Positions 28,425-33,368 of a stretch of DNA of 33,368 nt are shown in pieces. The stretch is from Melioribacteraceae bacterium (lineage in GTDB: Bacteria > Bacteroidota > Ignavibacteria > Ignavibacteriales > Melioribacteraceae), in contig JAKIUC010000050.1 of assembly GCA_021647785.1 (NCBI GenBank), forward strand, positions 1 to 33,368, in the 5' to 3' direction. The notes beneath the pieces are model-generated. The model saw only the letters and a program-made list of their open reading frames with translations, had not been told where the DNA came from and did no database searches. Made by a program: the position numbers and the translations under genes. Positions within the stretch are counted from its first letter, which is position 1; each line of letters begins with the position of its first letter.

Positions 28425-28788
28425 AAAACAACCCACGATGGAAGAGGCTGTGTGAAAAATACTCTCACGGACTTGCCAAAGGCATTCTTAAAGAAAAAGT
28501 CCGTTCGGTGAAGTTCGTTTTTGGCTCATATTCCCCACAATAAAAAGCAATGGTGTCAACATAACAAGAACCCACCCCTTAATCCCCTCCCAAGAGGGGA
28601 AATACTCACCATCTCGCTTTGCGAGATGGTGCAAAAAATCCCCTCTTGAGAGGGGAAGATGCTTTAGCATCAGGGGTGTGTTAAAATATTGATGAAGCTA
28701 AACCGCTAAAGTTGATACCATTACCTTAAAAGGTGGGGTTATGAGAAACCTTCTTTTTTACACAGCCTCTTCCATCGTGGGTTGTTTT
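28425..28788. mobile_element. 364-bp long-hairpin element with 35-bp terminal inverted repeats
   Basis: The arms 28425-28459 and 28754-28788 are reverse complements with one mismatch; they contain CACGATGGAAGAGGCTGTGT and its complement. Pairing goes on further in (CTCATATTCCCCAC near 28526-28539 with GTGGGGTTATGAG near 28733-28745), so the element is a long fold-back. A small hairpin CGGACTT/AAGTCCG lies in the left arm (28468-28503). A second element (28549-28722) sits near its loop. No reading frame of note. It lies between the pullulanase start and the trpB stop. Confidence 0.75.
28549..28722. mobile_element. 174-bp AATGGTGTCAAC-type element nested inside the long-hairpin element
   Basis: Ends are AATGGTGTCAAC (28549-28560) and GTTGATACCATT (28711-28722), reverse complements with one mismatch and the same termini as 12471-12616. 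The interior differs from that copy: it holds a perfect 11-bp hairpin CACCATCTCGC-TTT-GCGAGATGGTG (28607-28631), CCCCTCCCAAGAGGGG (28584-28599), CCCCTCTTGAGAGGGG (28640-28655) and GATGCT-TT-AGCATC (28658-28671). Confidence 0.7.
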
Positions 28789-28803: not shown

Positions 28804-30165
28804 CTAATCAACAACAGGTAAATCAGCAAAGTAACGCATAATTACTTCATCTGGCAATTTGTAATCTTCAAGGTTGTTATCAATGTAGGAGGCATAAGCA
28901 CTAAGATCCAAAAATCCGTGTCCCGAAAGATTGAATAGAATTGTTTTCGCTTCATTTCTTTCAGTACATTTTTTGGCTTCTTCAATTGCACCTTTAATTG
29001 CGTGTGCACTCTCTGGTGCTGGCAAAATACCTTCGGTGGTTAGAAATAATTTTGCAGCATCAAAAACTTCAATCTGATGATAACTGGCAGCTTCTATTGT
29101 TTTGTTCTCGTATAAATTAGAAACAGTTGGTGCCATTCCGTGGTAACGCAAACCGCCTGCATGAATTGCCGGAGGAATGAATGTATGACCAAGTGTAAAC
29201 ATTTTTAATAATGGAGTAAAGCCAACTGTATCACCAAAATCGTAAGCCAGCTTCCCTTTTGTTAAGGTTGGGCAAGATGATGGTTCAACTGCAATTACTC
29301 TTAAATCCTTTTTATCTCCAGTAAGTTTGTCGCGTAAAAATGGAAAACTGAGACCTGCAAAGTTACTACCACCACCAGCTGATGCAATAATTATATCCGG
29401 ATATTCATCCACTTTTGCAAGCTGCAAGCGTGCCTCTTCACCAATAATAGTTTGATGCAGCATAACATGATTTAACACAGAACCAAGTGCATAATTTGTA
29501 TCACTGCTATTAGCAGCAATTTCAACAGCTTCACTAATTGCAACACCAAGCGAGCCAGGAGAGTTGGGGTCTTTCTCTAAAATTTGTCGTCCGGAATTTG
29601 TTCTATCCGAAGGAGATGGATAAACTTTTGCATCGTGCAATTGCATTAATGTACGTCTGTATGGCTTTTGATCGTAACTAACCTTAACCATATAAACTTC
29701 CAAATCAATTCCAAAATGTTGGGTTGCAATTGAAAGAGCACTACCCCACTGACCTGCACCTGTTTCGGTTACTATCTTTTTAACTCCGGCTCGCTTATTG
29801 TAAAAAGCTTGTGCAATTGCAGTGTTTGTTTTGTGGCTGCCTGCAGGATTAGTACCTTCATACTTAAAAAAGATTTTCGCTGGTGTTCCCAAAGCCTTTT
29901 CCAATCTGTATGCACGGTGCATTGTGGTTGGACGGCTTAGTGAATATAACTCCAATATTTCTTCGGGGATTTTAATAAATCTTTCTTGACTCATTTCCTG
30001 CATAATTAGTTCTTCAGGAAAAAGGGGGGCTAAGTCTTCGGGACCAACTGGTTGTTTTGTTGCAGGGTTTAATGGCATAGCCAATGGGGTTGGTAAGTCT
30101 GGCAGAATGTTGTAATACTCTCTTGGCATTTCACTTGGGTTTAGGTAAATCTGATTGTTTCTCAT
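28804..30165 (-). CDS. trpB: Tryptophan synthase beta chain-like protein TrpB2
   Basis: This is a 453-residue PLP enzyme of the TrpB2 type, which joins indole and serine to make tryptophan. I use the ATG at 30165 behind GGAGAG; the frame stays open to 30270, but that extension covers the attenuator hairpins. The PLP lysine is K112 in [26 protein letters not shown] and the phosphate loop [10 protein letters not shown] are present, and [20 protein letters not shown] and [12 protein letters not shown] are typical of TrpB2 rather than TrpB1. No trpA is adjacent; TrpB2 genes are often separate. The upstream leader with three Trp codons indicates that it is regulated by tryptophan. Confidence 0.95.
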
Positions 30166-30202
30166 TATCTCTCCATTATTAAGTTGTGGTTTAAAAAAAA
30201 TC

Positions 30203-30230
30203 AAAAAAAAACCGTTTACATTAAACGGCT
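30203..30230 (-). terminator. trp attenuator, downstream terminator hairpin
   Basis: On the minus strand CCGTTTA-ATG-TAAACGG (30228-30212) is followed by nine T. It lies 38 bases before the trpB ATG, so it can stop transcription before the gene. Confidence 0.8.
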
Positions 30231-30250
30231 TTAAAACAAAAAAGCCGTGG
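30218..30250 (-). promoter_or_regulatory. trp attenuator, candidate alternative (antiterminator) pairing
   Basis: On the minus strand CGGCTTT (3' arm and T-run of the upstream hairpin) can pair with AAAGCCG (5' side of the downstream hairpin), 7 bp around TTTGTTTT. This structure excludes both terminator hairpins. It is inferred by eye; energies were not computed. Confidence 0.5.
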
Positions 30251-30272
30251 ATGGTATTCCTACTATCCACGG
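30236..30272 (-). terminator. trp attenuator, upstream terminator hairpin
   Basis: On the minus strand CCGTGGAT (30272-30265) pairs with ATCCACGG (30252-30245); GTA and TAC extend the stem inside, and CTTTTTTG follows. It starts 37 bases after the stop codon of the leader peptide. Confidence 0.8.
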
Positions 30273-30309
30273 TATTATTAAAATTTATATAAGTTTAGGA
30301 TAGCAGAAC

Positions 30310-30357
30310 TTAAGAGTGCCACCACCAATTGTTAATATTTGTATTGTTTAATTTCAT
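30310..30357 (-). CDS. trp leader peptide with three consecutive Trp codons
   Basis: ATG at 30357 (minus strand) encodes MKLNNTNINNWWWHS and stops at TAA 30312-30310. Three consecutive TGG codons lie four codons before the stop ending. Tandem terminator hairpins and the trpB2 gene follow. This is the layout of tryptophan attenuators such as E. coli trpL (two Trp codons). When Trp-tRNA is scarce the ribosome would stall on the TGG codons and change the downstream folding. Three Trp codons in a row in a 15-codon frame placed exactly there are very unlikely by chance. Confidence 0.85.
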   Translation of the reverse strand: MKLNNTNINNWWWHS

Positions 30358-30509
30358 TGGTGTTAAAATTGTTATTTATTTTGAAAGATGCAAATAATAT
30401 TTGATGATATTTAAATTATGTGGATATTTATTTAGAGTAAATATAAGGGTAATAACAAGTCTCTTCAACAAAAACATTGACTTTTCGGATTGCAATATCT
30501 AATTTAAAT

Positions 30510-30530
30510 TTCATTCTATTCAAGAATGAA
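30510..30530. repeat. Small hairpin upstream of the Asp-box protein
   Basis: TTCATTCT-ATTCA-AGAATGAA, 45 bases before the ATG at 30575. It might lie in the promoter or leader; role unknown. Confidence 0.4.
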
Positions 30531-30574
30531 AAATAATTTGAAGATACTTCAAAATGGGGAATGGGAGTAGGGAA

Positions 30575-33368
30575 ATGAAAAAACTAATTACAATTTTACT
30601 ATTTGCAGCTACACAATTTTACGCACAAATTTCAGAGATTACACGGTTTCCACTGCAAGATTCTATGACATCTACTCGTAATGGAATTATGATTAATGCA
30701 AACAATAATGAGTCTTTATTTATTTGGGGTGAAGGAGGTGAAACTAATATTTCAAGAAGTAATGATGGTGGTGTAACTTGGCAAAGTAAAAGCCAATTGA
30801 GCAGCACTGCTGGAGTTAACTATAGAAGTGTTAAAACAAATAGTGGAAGAATAATACTTGCCTTTTTTATTAGGAATGTTGGAAACAAATATTGTTGGAG
30901 TGATGATAATGGAAATACTTGGAGTGAACTCATCTCTTTACCAGCTGATGCTTGGTTTACTCTATCAACAACATTAGATAATAGAGTTTGGGTTGTTTAT
31001 AGCCCATCTTCTTCCAAAAAATTAGTTTATAAAACGAGTGAAGATAGTGGGGAAACTTGGTCTGGAACCAAAGAACTTTGGAATGAGAGCGATATAAATC
31101 ATATCATGGGTGATTTAATTCAACTAAATGATTCAACACTTTTGGCGACATCTCATGTGAAATTTGATAGTTCCCAATACGCACATAATATAGCAACAAA
31201 GTATAGTTACGATAATGGAAATAGCTGGAGTGAATATTCTAATATTTTCAGAGATGAAAAAGGGTTTATTAATTCACAGACTGTTCAGTTAAGTAATAAT
31301 GAAATAAAAATTGTTTTTGGACCTGAAATAAGAATTGTTCCTGATTCTAATGGATTCTATAATTCTGGAGTTACATATATTGAAAGTAGTGATGGAGGAG
31401 AAACCTGGTCGGATAAACTACGTTTTACAAAATACTACGGCTACAATAAACTTGCATCAGTTAATGAAGTAAATGGAAAAGCCCTAACTCTATTTACATC
31501 CGATAGATTTGAGGGACCTCTCCAACTTTGGTATGGAATTATAGGAGAATCGGAAGATATTATTGCACCTCCAATAATTTGGAATGTAAAAAGTTCACCA
31601 GGTGTACTAATTGAAGGAGATACATTAATAATTACAGCTCTAATTTTAGATGATAGTGGAATTTCTAAAGCCTCTATTACTCCAATAATTAATGGTGATG
31701 TAAAAGAAGAAATTGAAATGTTTGATAATGGTTTGATTAATGATCTAACAGCTGATGATAAAGTGTTTACTGTAGCAATTGGTACATTTACCAAAAATGA
31801 TACTATTGAATACTCTATTACCGCAATTAATACAAATAATTATAAAGCTATAAGTAATAGTTTAACTGTTATTGTACAACATCCAAATAAAATGAGGAAA
31901 TTTTATCTTGATATTAATAGATTAAAATTACCTATAAATAACAGAGGTGTTTTAGCAGATGTAAAAGTTGGAAATGAAAGAACAAGTGGTAGATATGATA
32001 GTAAAGCTGTTCTTTATTCTGGCGGTTTTGGTCTTTCGGGATATGCAGAGGGTGAACTTTGGGCTAATGCCAATTTAACTGCTTCAAGGGTTGAAGATTA
32101 CATACCAGGTAAAGTAGGGAGTGAACCAGATGATACCTTAAATATGATTTATATTTTAAGGAGTGAAGATAAACCATTTGGCAATGCTTGGAAAACTTGG
32201 CGAACAGCAGTAGAGTTGGGTGCAAAATTTTACGATGGAGATAATGATGGATTATATAACCCGATTGACTTAAACGGAAATGAAGTTTGGGATGAAGATG
32301 AAGATAGACCAGATTTAATAGGGGATGTAACAACATGGACTCTATTTAATGATGGGAAACCATCCGACCAACGTGCATTTAGTGATATGTTCCCAAGAGA
32401 TATTGAAGTTAGACAAACTCTGTTTGCATATTCACCAGATGGATATAGTGAATTAGATGGAGTAATATTTATCAGATATATAATTGAAAATAAGAGCCTA
32501 TCTGATTATGATTCAGTCTATTTTGCAACTATGTCCGATGCTGATATTGGAACATATAATAATGATTTAACAGGTTGTGATACTACGATAAACTCAGGTT
32601 ATACTTACGATAATTTGATAGATGAAGATTACGGAAATTCTCCAACAATTATGTCAACAGTTTTACAAGGGGCTCCAGTTTATATTGCAGGTGAGACATT
32701 TATAGATAACAACAGCAATGGATTTTACGATGCGGGTATTGATACACCAATAGACACAGCAAAAAACAATAATGGAGAATTCCTTCCTGAACAAAAATTT
32801 GCTGGAGCTAAGAACCTAACTATGACCTCCTTTATTCATTATTTAAAAAGTAACCCAACTCAAGGTGATGCTGATAATGCTGAACAACTGAGAAATTATA
32901 TGTTAGGATTAAGAACAAATGGTGACTTAATTAATCCGTGTAATTGGAATTTTGGTTCTGTTTTTGACGAAGATTGTACAACAATAAATCCACGTTTTAT
33001 GTATTCAGGAAATCCTGTAGAGAAAAGTGGTTGGGTATGCACTATAAATTATGACCACAGAATGCTTGTAAATTCAGGACCTTTTGATTTAAAAATAAAT
33101 GAACCAGTTGAAATAATTGTTGCATATAGTGTTGGAAGGGGAAGCACATCTCTTGAATCAATAGACGTAACAAAAAAAATTGTTAATGATGTAATAGGTT
33201 TTTATAATACAAATTTCAGTTACGTTCCAGTTGGTGTAAAAGGAAATCCCAAATCAGAATTACCAACAGAATATAGTTTATCGCAGAACTATCCAAATCC
33301 TTTTAACCCGAATACAACAATAAAATATCAAATACCATCGCCGCAAACTCCCCTCTTGGGAGGGGTTG
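30575..33368 (+). CDS. Secreted Asp-box (sialidase-like) protein with T9SS sorting domain, 3' truncated
   Basis: The frame is open from the ATG at 30575 (behind GGAGTAGGGAA) to the right edge, 931 codons. A signal peptide (MKKLITILLFAATQFYAQ) leads into a beta-propeller-like region with five Asp boxes of type S-x-D-x-G-x-T/S-W: SNDGGVTW (near 62), SDDNGNTW (108), SEDSGETW (158), SYDNGNSW (212) and SSDGGETW (272), the mark of sialidase/BNR folds. Sialidase catalytic residues were not confirmed. An Ig-like part (about 330-430) and a long domain with calcium-loop-like DGDNDGLYN and DNNSNGFYDAG follow. From about residue 895 the T9SS sorting domain begins (NYPNPFNPNTTIKYQIP) and is cut off. The last codons read into a GC-rich palindromic repeat. 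Surface glycan binding or cleavage is possible. Confidence 0.85.
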   Translation, partial: MKKLITILLFAATQFYAQISEITRFPLQDSMTSTRNGIMINANNNESLFIWGEGGETNISRSNDGGVTWQSKSQLSSTAGVNYRSVKTNSGRIILAFFIRNVGNKYCWSDDNGNTWSELISLPADAWFTLSTTLDNRVWVVYSPSSSKKLVYKTSEDSGETWSGTKELWNESDINHIMGDLIQLNDSTLLATSHVKFDSSQYAHNIATKYSYDNGNSWSEYSNIFRDEKGFINSQTVQLSNNEIKIVFGPEIRIVPDSNGFYNSGVTYIESSDGGETWSDKLRFTKYYGYNKLASVNEVNGKALTLFTSDRFEGPLQLWYGIIGESEDIIAPPIIWNVKSSPGVLIEGDTLIITALILDDSGISKASITPIINGDVKEEIEMFDNGLINDLTADDKVFTVAIGTFTKNDTIEYSITAINTNNYKAISNSLTVIVQHPNKMRKFYLDINRLKLPINNRGVLADVKVGNERTSGRYDSKAVLYSGGFGLSGYAEGELWANANLTASRVEDYIPGKVGSEPDDTLNMIYILRSEDKPFGNAWKTWRTAVELGAKFYDGDNDGLYNPIDLNGNEVWDEDEDRPDLIGDVTTWTLFNDGKPSDQRAFSDMFPRDIEVRQTLFAYSPDGYSELDGVIFIRYIIENKSLSDYDSVYFATMSDADIGTYNNDLTGCDTTINSGYTYDNLIDEDYGNSPTIMSTVLQGAPVYIAGETFIDNNSNGFYDAGIDTPIDTAKNNNGEFLPEQKFAGAKNLTMTSFIHYLKSNPTQGDADNAEQLRNYMLGLRTNGDLINPCNWNFGSVFDEDCTTINPRFMYSGNPVEKSGWVCTINYDHRMLVNSGPFDLKINEPVEIIVAYSVGRGSTSLESIDVTKKIVNDVIGFYNTNFSYVPVGVKGNPKSELPTEYSLSQNYPNPFNPNTTIKYQIPSPQTPLLGGV
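33349..33365. repeat. GC-rich palindromic repeat inside the T9SS domain
   Basis: TCCCCTCTTGGGAGGGG is the exact reverse complement of 28584-28600 in the nested element. In the reading frame it gives TPLLGGV right after IKYQIPSPQ, where sorting domains normally go on with VKLxVYD-type strands. The window ends here, so the full insert cannot be seen. Confidence 0.6.

Follow-up and report, generated by a model that had tools for sequence, protein, structure and literature searches.

The trpB2 gene of a Melioribacteraceae bacterium from the order Ignavibacteriales is preceded by a candidate tryptophan attenuator. The window, that is, the whole analysed stretch of 33,368 nucleotides, contains on its minus strand a leader peptide ORF with a run of Trp codons, alternative hairpins of the classical kind, and a second candidate terminator linked to the first by complementarity. 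This arrangement is probably best explained as a ribosome-mediated Trp attenuator extended by a "domino" relay step. The elements are, from the promoter to the end of the gene:

30364..30394, minus strand: candidate Bacteroidota-type promoter with TTTG at 30394-30391 and a degenerate -7 box CAATTTTA at 30371-30364 (by position and relatives)
30357-30310, minus strand: leader ORF MKLNNTNINNWWWHS of 15 codons, ATG at 30357, three adjacent Trp codons at 30327-30319 (translation)
30315..30322, minus strand: region 1, overlapping the Trp codons, partner of region 2 (alignment helix 1:2)
30298..30310, minus strand: region 2, where 30310-30303 pairs with region 1 and 30308-30298 pairs with region 3 to form the antiterminator (helix 2:3)
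30273-30244, minus strand: T1, candidate intrinsic terminator of regions 3 and 4 (helix 3:4), U-run at 30243-30238
30225..30232, minus strand: region 5, AAAGCCGT, candidate partner of region 4 (30248-30241, ACGGCTTT) or of region 6 of T2 (duplex)
30203..30232, minus strand: T2, second candidate intrinsic terminator, regions 5:6 at 30232-30208, U-run at 30207-30203 (sequence)
30171..30174, minus strand: Shine-Dalgarno box GGAG of trpB2 (sequence)
28804..30165, minus strand: trpB2, TrpB-like PLP enzyme of 453 amino acids (NCBIfam family models)
28639..28656, minus strand: terminator-like hairpin 3' of trpB2 (three terminator-like sites in 2.6 kb, 1.9 expected from shuffles)

When tryptophan is scarce, the ribosome would stall at the Trp codons and mask region 1. 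Region 2 would then pair with region 3 and block T1, and region 4, thus freed, would pair with region 5, allowing expression of trpB2. The 4:5 pairing would prevent formation of T2 in the window, or hold region 5 off the Shine-Dalgarno box in relatives. When tryptophan is plentiful, the ribosome would proceed to the stop codon, which is next to or within region 2, and mask this region; helix 3:4 would form, and transcription would end at T1. In readthrough transcripts region 4 would be locked in T1, leaving region 5 free for T2 or, in relatives, for the Shine-Dalgarno box. The leader, the helices 1:2, 2:3 and 3:4, and the complementarity of region 5 to the Shine-Dalgarno region in relatives are supported by the sequence comparisons. 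The positions of the ribosome, the action of 4:5 as an antiterminator of T2, and regulation by tryptophan itself are inferred.

In 164 genomes from the order, a protein search yielded trpB2-like matches with at least 54% identity at 84 places. Two matches lacking the N-terminus (G026 and G117) were left out, upstream DNA was taken for 82 places, and the contig of L011 ends 46 nt upstream, leaving 81 assessable loci. The core, consisting of a Trp leader and T1, precedes trpB2 in 37 of these (36 aligned loci and L136). Among the 39 trpB2 places with at least 65% identity it was found in 37, the others being L011, cut by the contig end, and a close relative, L024, where the leader is lost. The T1-like hairpin before trpB2 is retained in L024. 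The original prediction had called for conserved Trp-codon leaders and covarying stems in relatives, and both were found, the leaders at the 37 loci and the covarying stems in the 36 aligned ones.

The covariance model R1, built from the 36 aligned loci, scores at least 60 bits at 38 sites in the 164 genomes, namely the 37 before trpB2 and L135, which was left out of the core loci as its contig ends after T1. A filtered search of the window's own genome gives one strong match, at trpB2 (90.3 bits; the next best has 33.5), which rules out that the core is common in this genome. In 294 genomes sampled from the class there is one further site, L144, again before trpB2 (68.2 bits), while two weak matches, L145 and L146 (44.7 and 41.8 bits), have no TGGTGG and stand before other ORFs. 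Six of the best 80 trpB2 loci from named genomes have the core (L003, L006, L008, L009, L023, L035); all six were already among the 37, and no independent rows were gained. The core is also present in a MAG labelled Melioribacter roseus (L158).

The 15-codon leader with its WWW run and the two following hairpins with U-runs before trpB2 had been predicted originally, and their coordinates and translation are confirmed. The leader ORF has the repeated Trp codons of a trp-type ribosome-mediated attenuator, and these are three or four in number in 36 of the 37 core loci and two in L007. The candidate -7 box CAATTTTA ends 6 nt 5' of the leader ATG. A TTTG followed by TAnnTTTG corresponds to the Bacteroidota-type promoter consensus. 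At 27 of the 37 loci a TAnnTTTG-like box with at most one mismatch is found 0-14 nt upstream of the leader ATG, compared to 21% in single-base shuffles, and in relatives it is usually accompanied by an upstream TTG. The box in the window itself has two mismatches, falls outside the 27, and was assigned by its position and by the relatives. The proximity of the box to the ATG suggests that the leader ORF is leaderless or nearly so. A scan for sigma-70 promoters produced 8 sites with 8.7 expected, that is, no excess. In L031 and L037, a tRNA-Lys gene replaces the promoter-like box and ends 5 nt (2986-2992) and 7 nt (264-272) before the leader ATG, respectively. Since it ends so close to the ATG, the 5' end of the leader in these two loci may be made by tRNA processing.

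In the window, TTCTGCTATCC (30308-30298) is complementary to GGATAGTAGGA in the 5' half of T1 (30268-30258) over 11 bp, with an energy of -16.0 kcal/mol. Helix 1:2 pairs 30310-30303 with 30322-30315, where 7 of the 8 alignment pairs form; the unconstrained fold of the window has a 6-pair hairpin in a different register, 30322-30317 with 30305-30300. Folding of the leader, also suggested originally, showed the 221-nt region to be more stable than its shuffles (z -2.1), with 5 of 200 shuffles being equally good.

In alignment A1 of 36 sequences, helix 1:2 has 85.4% of cells paired and two-sided changes in 3 of 8 pairs, helix 2:3 has 95.2% and 3 of 7, and helix 3:4 has 97.0% and 3 of 11. For the three core helices, the share of paired cells, the number of cells with two-sided changes, and the covariation score were higher than in all 500 shuffles, which ignore relatedness of the sequences, and slid registers of the helices fall to 22-60% paired. 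Weaker measures were reached more often. For 1:2 with 3:4, 20 of the 500 shuffles had at least as many two-sided pairs and 219 at least as many further pair types; for 2:3 these figures were 2 and 142. A point against is that helix 2:3 slid by +3 has 4 two-sided pairs versus the observed 3, but 9 cells versus 17. Column 98 co-changes both with its T1 partner, column 110, and with its antiterminator partner, column 43. The predicted mutually exclusive helices 1:2, 2:3 and 3:4 are thus backed by covariation, and the candidate intrinsic terminator 3:4 with its U-run lies 5' of the gene. As candidate regions 1, 2, 3 and 4 of a classical attenuator, this core is well supported. With the preserved Trp-codon leaders and the two-sided changes in the three helices, the sequences support the original assignment of a Trp attenuator before trpB2.

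In the window the leader stop codon is found at the upstream border of region 2, and in many relatives at the downstream border; a ribosome that has reached it would therefore cover this region. The gap of 47 bases between the Trp codons and the first hairpin had initially been considered long for simple ribosome masking. This doubt is not supported, as the gap contains regions 1 and 2, overlooked originally, and region 2, not T1 itself, would be the target of a ribosome that stalls or terminates. A switch working solely via mutual pairing of the two terminators is ruled out by the presence and covariation of regions 1 and 2. In the free starved transcript, the antiterminator loses to T1 at equilibrium in 35 of the 37 loci, the exceptions being L004 and L038, and thus the order of synthesis must matter. 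Attenuators are generally held to depend on the order of RNA synthesis.

The trpB2 protein matches the family models NF009057 (710.4 bits) and TIGR01415 (633.6 bits), both above the cut-off, and by these scores the predicted target belongs to the matching tryptophan pathway. The terminator-like hairpin 28656-28639 comes after the gene, which suggests that trpB2 is a monocistronic unit. The genes trpG, D, C, F, B and A, named from translations alone, lie on another contig of the genome, and trpE, above the NCBIfam cut-off, on a third one. Given this hairpin and the location of the other trp genes, the stand-alone setting of trpB2 noted originally looks real. A divergent plus-strand ORF starts at 30575 (MKKLITILLFAATQFYAQ..., first 42 codons read), approximately 220 bp from the leader.

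The relay would depend on region 5. As proposed originally, the two hairpins have complementary arms, the 3' one in T1 and the 5' one in T2: ACGGCTTT, which includes Us after T1, and AAAGCCGT match perfectly over 8 bp. In the window the 4:5 duplex has -11.3 kcal/mol, equalled in 2.3% of 300 single-base shuffles, while region 5 shows no marked complementarity to the Shine-Dalgarno region (-4.3 kcal/mol, p 0.44). The 37 core loci were assigned to types by eye. Region 5 is the 5' arm of T2 in 17 of them, including the window (T2 type), and is complementary to the flank of the trpB2 Shine-Dalgarno box in 15 (SD type); it is absent in four and degenerate in L030. The mean 4:5 energy is -13.8 kcal/mol in the T2 type (n=17), -17.9 in the SD type (n=15) and -3.5 in the loci without region 5 (n=4), and the share of 300 single-base shuffles that reach the energy of the locus is below 1% in 11 of 17, 15 of 15 and 0 of 4 loci, respectively. 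For pairing of region 5 with the Shine-Dalgarno region the means are -4.5, -14.1 and -4.1 kcal/mol, with fewer than 1% of shuffles as good in 0 of 17, 11 of 15 and 0 of 4 loci. A rule independent of the eye leads to the same division: 15 loci have both GTGAA[CT][CT] in region 5 and GGTTCA 5' of the start codon, whereas the other 22 have neither. The shorter TTCA is less specific than GGTTCA, as it also precedes the start codon in one T2-type locus (L006). Within the SD clade, changes in the pairing of region 5 with the Shine-Dalgarno region lead to G-U or unpaired positions only, which is a point against it. Taken with its joint absence, the candidate complementarity of region 5 to the Shine-Dalgarno region is supported.

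Folds with the antiterminator imposed represented the starved state, and folds with region 2 masked the replete one. For RNA ending just before the 3' arm of T2, scored in all 17 T2-type loci, the probability of 4:5 is 0.98-1.00 in 17 of 17 starved folds; in the replete folds it ranges from 0 to 0.44, with T1 above 0.5 in all 17. The replete state of the window is the least clear of the 17 (T1 0.59, 4:5 0.44), which counts against the relay. Full-length folds were scored in 15 of the 17 loci, with region 5 unplaced in L013 and L136, and 4:5 exceeds 0.5 in only 4 of these 15, including the window (0.79). In the SD type, the starved probability of 4:5 is at least 0.96 in 15 of 15 loci, and the replete probability of pairing between region 5 and the Shine-Dalgarno region is at least 0.5 in 11 of 15. 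The mean openness of the Shine-Dalgarno region changes from 0.28 (replete) to 0.48 (starved), with no rise in L023, L029, L036 and L037. In these four loci the full-length replete fold favours 4:5 over T1, a further point against.

One possibility, which we regard as unlikely although it has several observations on its side, is that this is a plain classical Trp attenuator where T2 is a fail-safe back-up for leaky termination and 4:5 is an accident of similar terminator stems. Indeed, two terminators with similar stems could yield 4:5 in the T2 type, and four relatives manage without region 5. In equilibrium folds with a complete T2, this terminator is favoured over 4:5 in 14 of the 17 T2-type loci, the window retaining 4:5 at 0.74. 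Thus the relay to T2 needs kinetic control, and 4:5 would be an antiterminator of T2 in the kinetic sense. Each strand of 22 genomes has 0 to 7 occurrences of a stem of the form AAGCCGT..ACGGCTTT, partly in these leaders themselves, and 0 to 5 of the reversed-pattern control. On the other hand, in the window's own genome this stem occurs at one place, outside the leader, and the leader's own T2 does not fit the pattern. Arm-to-arm pairings as strong as 4:5 make up 3.3% of 420 between 21 terminator-like hairpins in 72.6 kb of this genome, a rough yardstick, since the set includes T1, T2, dubious hairpins and loci with weak model matches. Generic likeness of terminator stems as the cause of 4:5 thus weakens the case for the relay in T2-type loci and does not remove it. 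The 4:5 complementarity of the window appears unusual, yet within reach of coincidence, and the SD type gives the stronger argument. L016, L017, L032 and L038 keep a region 5 that has no U-tract terminator and is complementary to both region 4 and the Shine-Dalgarno region. Finally, a constitutive strong T2 would also reduce expression when the gene is needed.

For the relay reading, the origin of the two outputs was considered on a maximum-likelihood tree of TrpB2 (42 rows). The 17 T2-type rows are on one side of a branch (100/95). The 15 SD-type rows, the four without region 5, L030 and L024 form one clade of 21 (100/95), and the outgroups attach among the T2 rows (74/89). The four loci without region 5 group with the leaderless L024 (94/93), nested among the SD rows, and in none of 200 bootstrap trees does a single branch set the SD type apart from all other rows. 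L030, where both region 5 and the Shine-Dalgarno complement have decayed, is placed elsewhere in the clade of 21, weakly (84/26). Given a root outside the clade of 21, the SD output therefore arose once, and region 5 and the Shine-Dalgarno complement have apparently been lost together twice. L144, which belongs to a different family of the class, groups with the clade of 21 on a long branch (90/89). It has an anti-Shine-Dalgarno of a different sequence beside region 5 (-12.5 kcal/mol; 4:5 has -12.2 kcal/mol); since the two pairings are offset, they may not be mutually exclusive.

We lean slightly towards a modular attenuator of six segments, with one Trp-reading core, a reusable 4:5 relay and interchangeable second outputs, the one in the window being a second intrinsic terminator. 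Region 5 of the SD clade would have been retooled as an anti-Shine-Dalgarno, and the relay later lost together with its target. In this clade region 4 would mimic the flank of the Shine-Dalgarno box and titrate region 5 away from it.

Other Trp leaders were also observed in these genomes. Twenty regions were picked from weak core-model matches, several for proximity to the other trpB. Ten of them have a trpE-like gene, named from its translation, with its own Trp-codon leader and one terminator (L121-L128, L130, L131), and 8 are chance matches of the model (L129, L132-L134, L137-L140). The trpE gene of the window's own genome (L236, identified by family model) has the Trp leader MKNLTTKNISNTKFNNWAWWQFIR. 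Use of the same element by trpE was considered, but the trpE leaders of these ten regions and of L236 appear to be separate Trp attenuators with one terminator. By eye, the partner of region 2 in them appears to be the 3' arm of the terminator, not the 5' arm. Among 43 trpB2 loci of the order that are more distant, 16 have a short upstream ORF with at least two Trp codons (L042, L043, L044, L049, L051, L053, L054, L056, L058, L059, L064, L065, L070, L077, L078, L079). Many of these ORFs end in WPWRR, WWPPRGL, WWLSC or similar; there is often a short hairpin at the Trp codons, and a terminator is not evident to the eye. In Neomarinimicrobiota, L217 has the WWW leader MNRISALKNRQNTLNWWWQISNGAVRC approximately 190 nt upstream of trpB2 and one terminator of a different sequence, and this leader looks like one of independent origin. 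Among the best 80 named trpB2 loci, it is the sole further WW leader beyond the six core loci.

The trp attenuator of E. coli and other proteobacteria (TrpL) has a Trp-rich leader ORF and mutually exclusive helices 1:2, 2:3 and 3:4, with 3:4 being the terminator. The window resembles it in the Trp-rich leader, regions 1-4 and terminator 3:4. It differs in that it controls a lone trpB2, adds regions 5 and 6, and has a leader ORF that seems to have little or no 5' UTR; the likeness lies in the arrangement. In the wider phylum, the Bacteroid-trp motif of Rfam is a Trp leader. It has no match in the window at E-values up to 5, and the term found no paper in the literature search. Among the 7 cmscan matches in 29900-30700 at E-values up to 5 there are no Rfam Trp-leader families besides RF04312.

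A metabolite-binding riboswitch similar to the Rfam trpB motif RF04312, as opposed to an attenuator read by the ribosome, is very improbable. RF04312 aligns to the window end to end, with a stem similar to 1:2 and T1, but its score of 20.6 bits (E 3.2) is far under the gathering threshold of 59, and the window is not assigned to this family. Moreover, the short ORFs throughout the family have retained their Trp-codon runs, for which a riboswitch has no need. According to the cited part of PMC11109978, the right shoulder of P1 in this motif is a candidate antiterminator followed by a terminator, the motif is occasionally found before trpB, and its authors leave a classic attenuator possible. 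Unlike the window, it is found there in Firmicutes and Fusobacteria. A chance co-occurrence of the ORF and hairpins, with no regulation at all, is hardly credible, since leaders and hairpins are conserved at 37 loci and the helices have two-sided changes.

The ribosome-mediated attenuator with a relay has several partial analogues. The closest working one found is the B. subtilis vmlR leader, where antibiotic-induced stalling is described with closely similar logic and a Shine-Dalgarno output; it resembles the SD-type relatives rather than the window (PMC9226507, in part). Unlike the window, vmlR stalls by antibiotic and not at Trp codons and comes from an unrelated lineage, and a second terminator is unmentioned in the cited part of that paper. 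Pairing of the vmlR kind, sequestering the Shine-Dalgarno box and coupled to the antiterminator, was not found in the window (-4.3 kcal/mol, p 0.44), the complementarity being present in 15 of 37 loci. In B. subtilis tlrB/yxjB, a single leader peptide similarly governs both termination and access to the Shine-Dalgarno box. According to the cited part of PMC6851288, the stalled ribosome blocks both structures and the authors did not find an overlapping antiterminator, in contrast to the proposed relay. The actinobacterial trp attenuators, in one species preceding the trpB2A operon, share with the window the UGG-rich leader, the antiterminator and the terminator, and in the cited part of PMC1262725 no relay towards a further output is mentioned. 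Salmonella mgtCBR has tandem attenuators in one leader, similar to the steps proposed for the window, but with two leader ORFs (PMC3641672, in part). The rimP-leader shares tandem terminators with the window, the upstream one with a possible antiterminator; in the cited part of PMC2965389 it is not described as a Trp-codon leader. The idea of chained helices is not new, since the comparative study of Lopatovskaya 2010, according to the cited part of PMC4833913, stressed helix chains and overlap with the ribosome-binding site in attenuation. A full-text literature search, covering few subscription papers, returned no title on a Trp attenuator in Ignavibacteria or on a 4:5 relay to a second terminator.

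The candidate attenuators would extend Trp attenuation to Ignavibacteriales, and to stand-alone trpB2 beyond the trp operon. If the relay is true, a classical attenuator can acquire a second checkpoint while keeping its single sensor, and a few bases can be enough to shift an RNA switch from termination to control of translation, the sensor being unchanged. The family presents natural stages before, during and after such a change of output. As the core is present in the Melioribacter roseus MAG, a test near a cultured species is conceivable.
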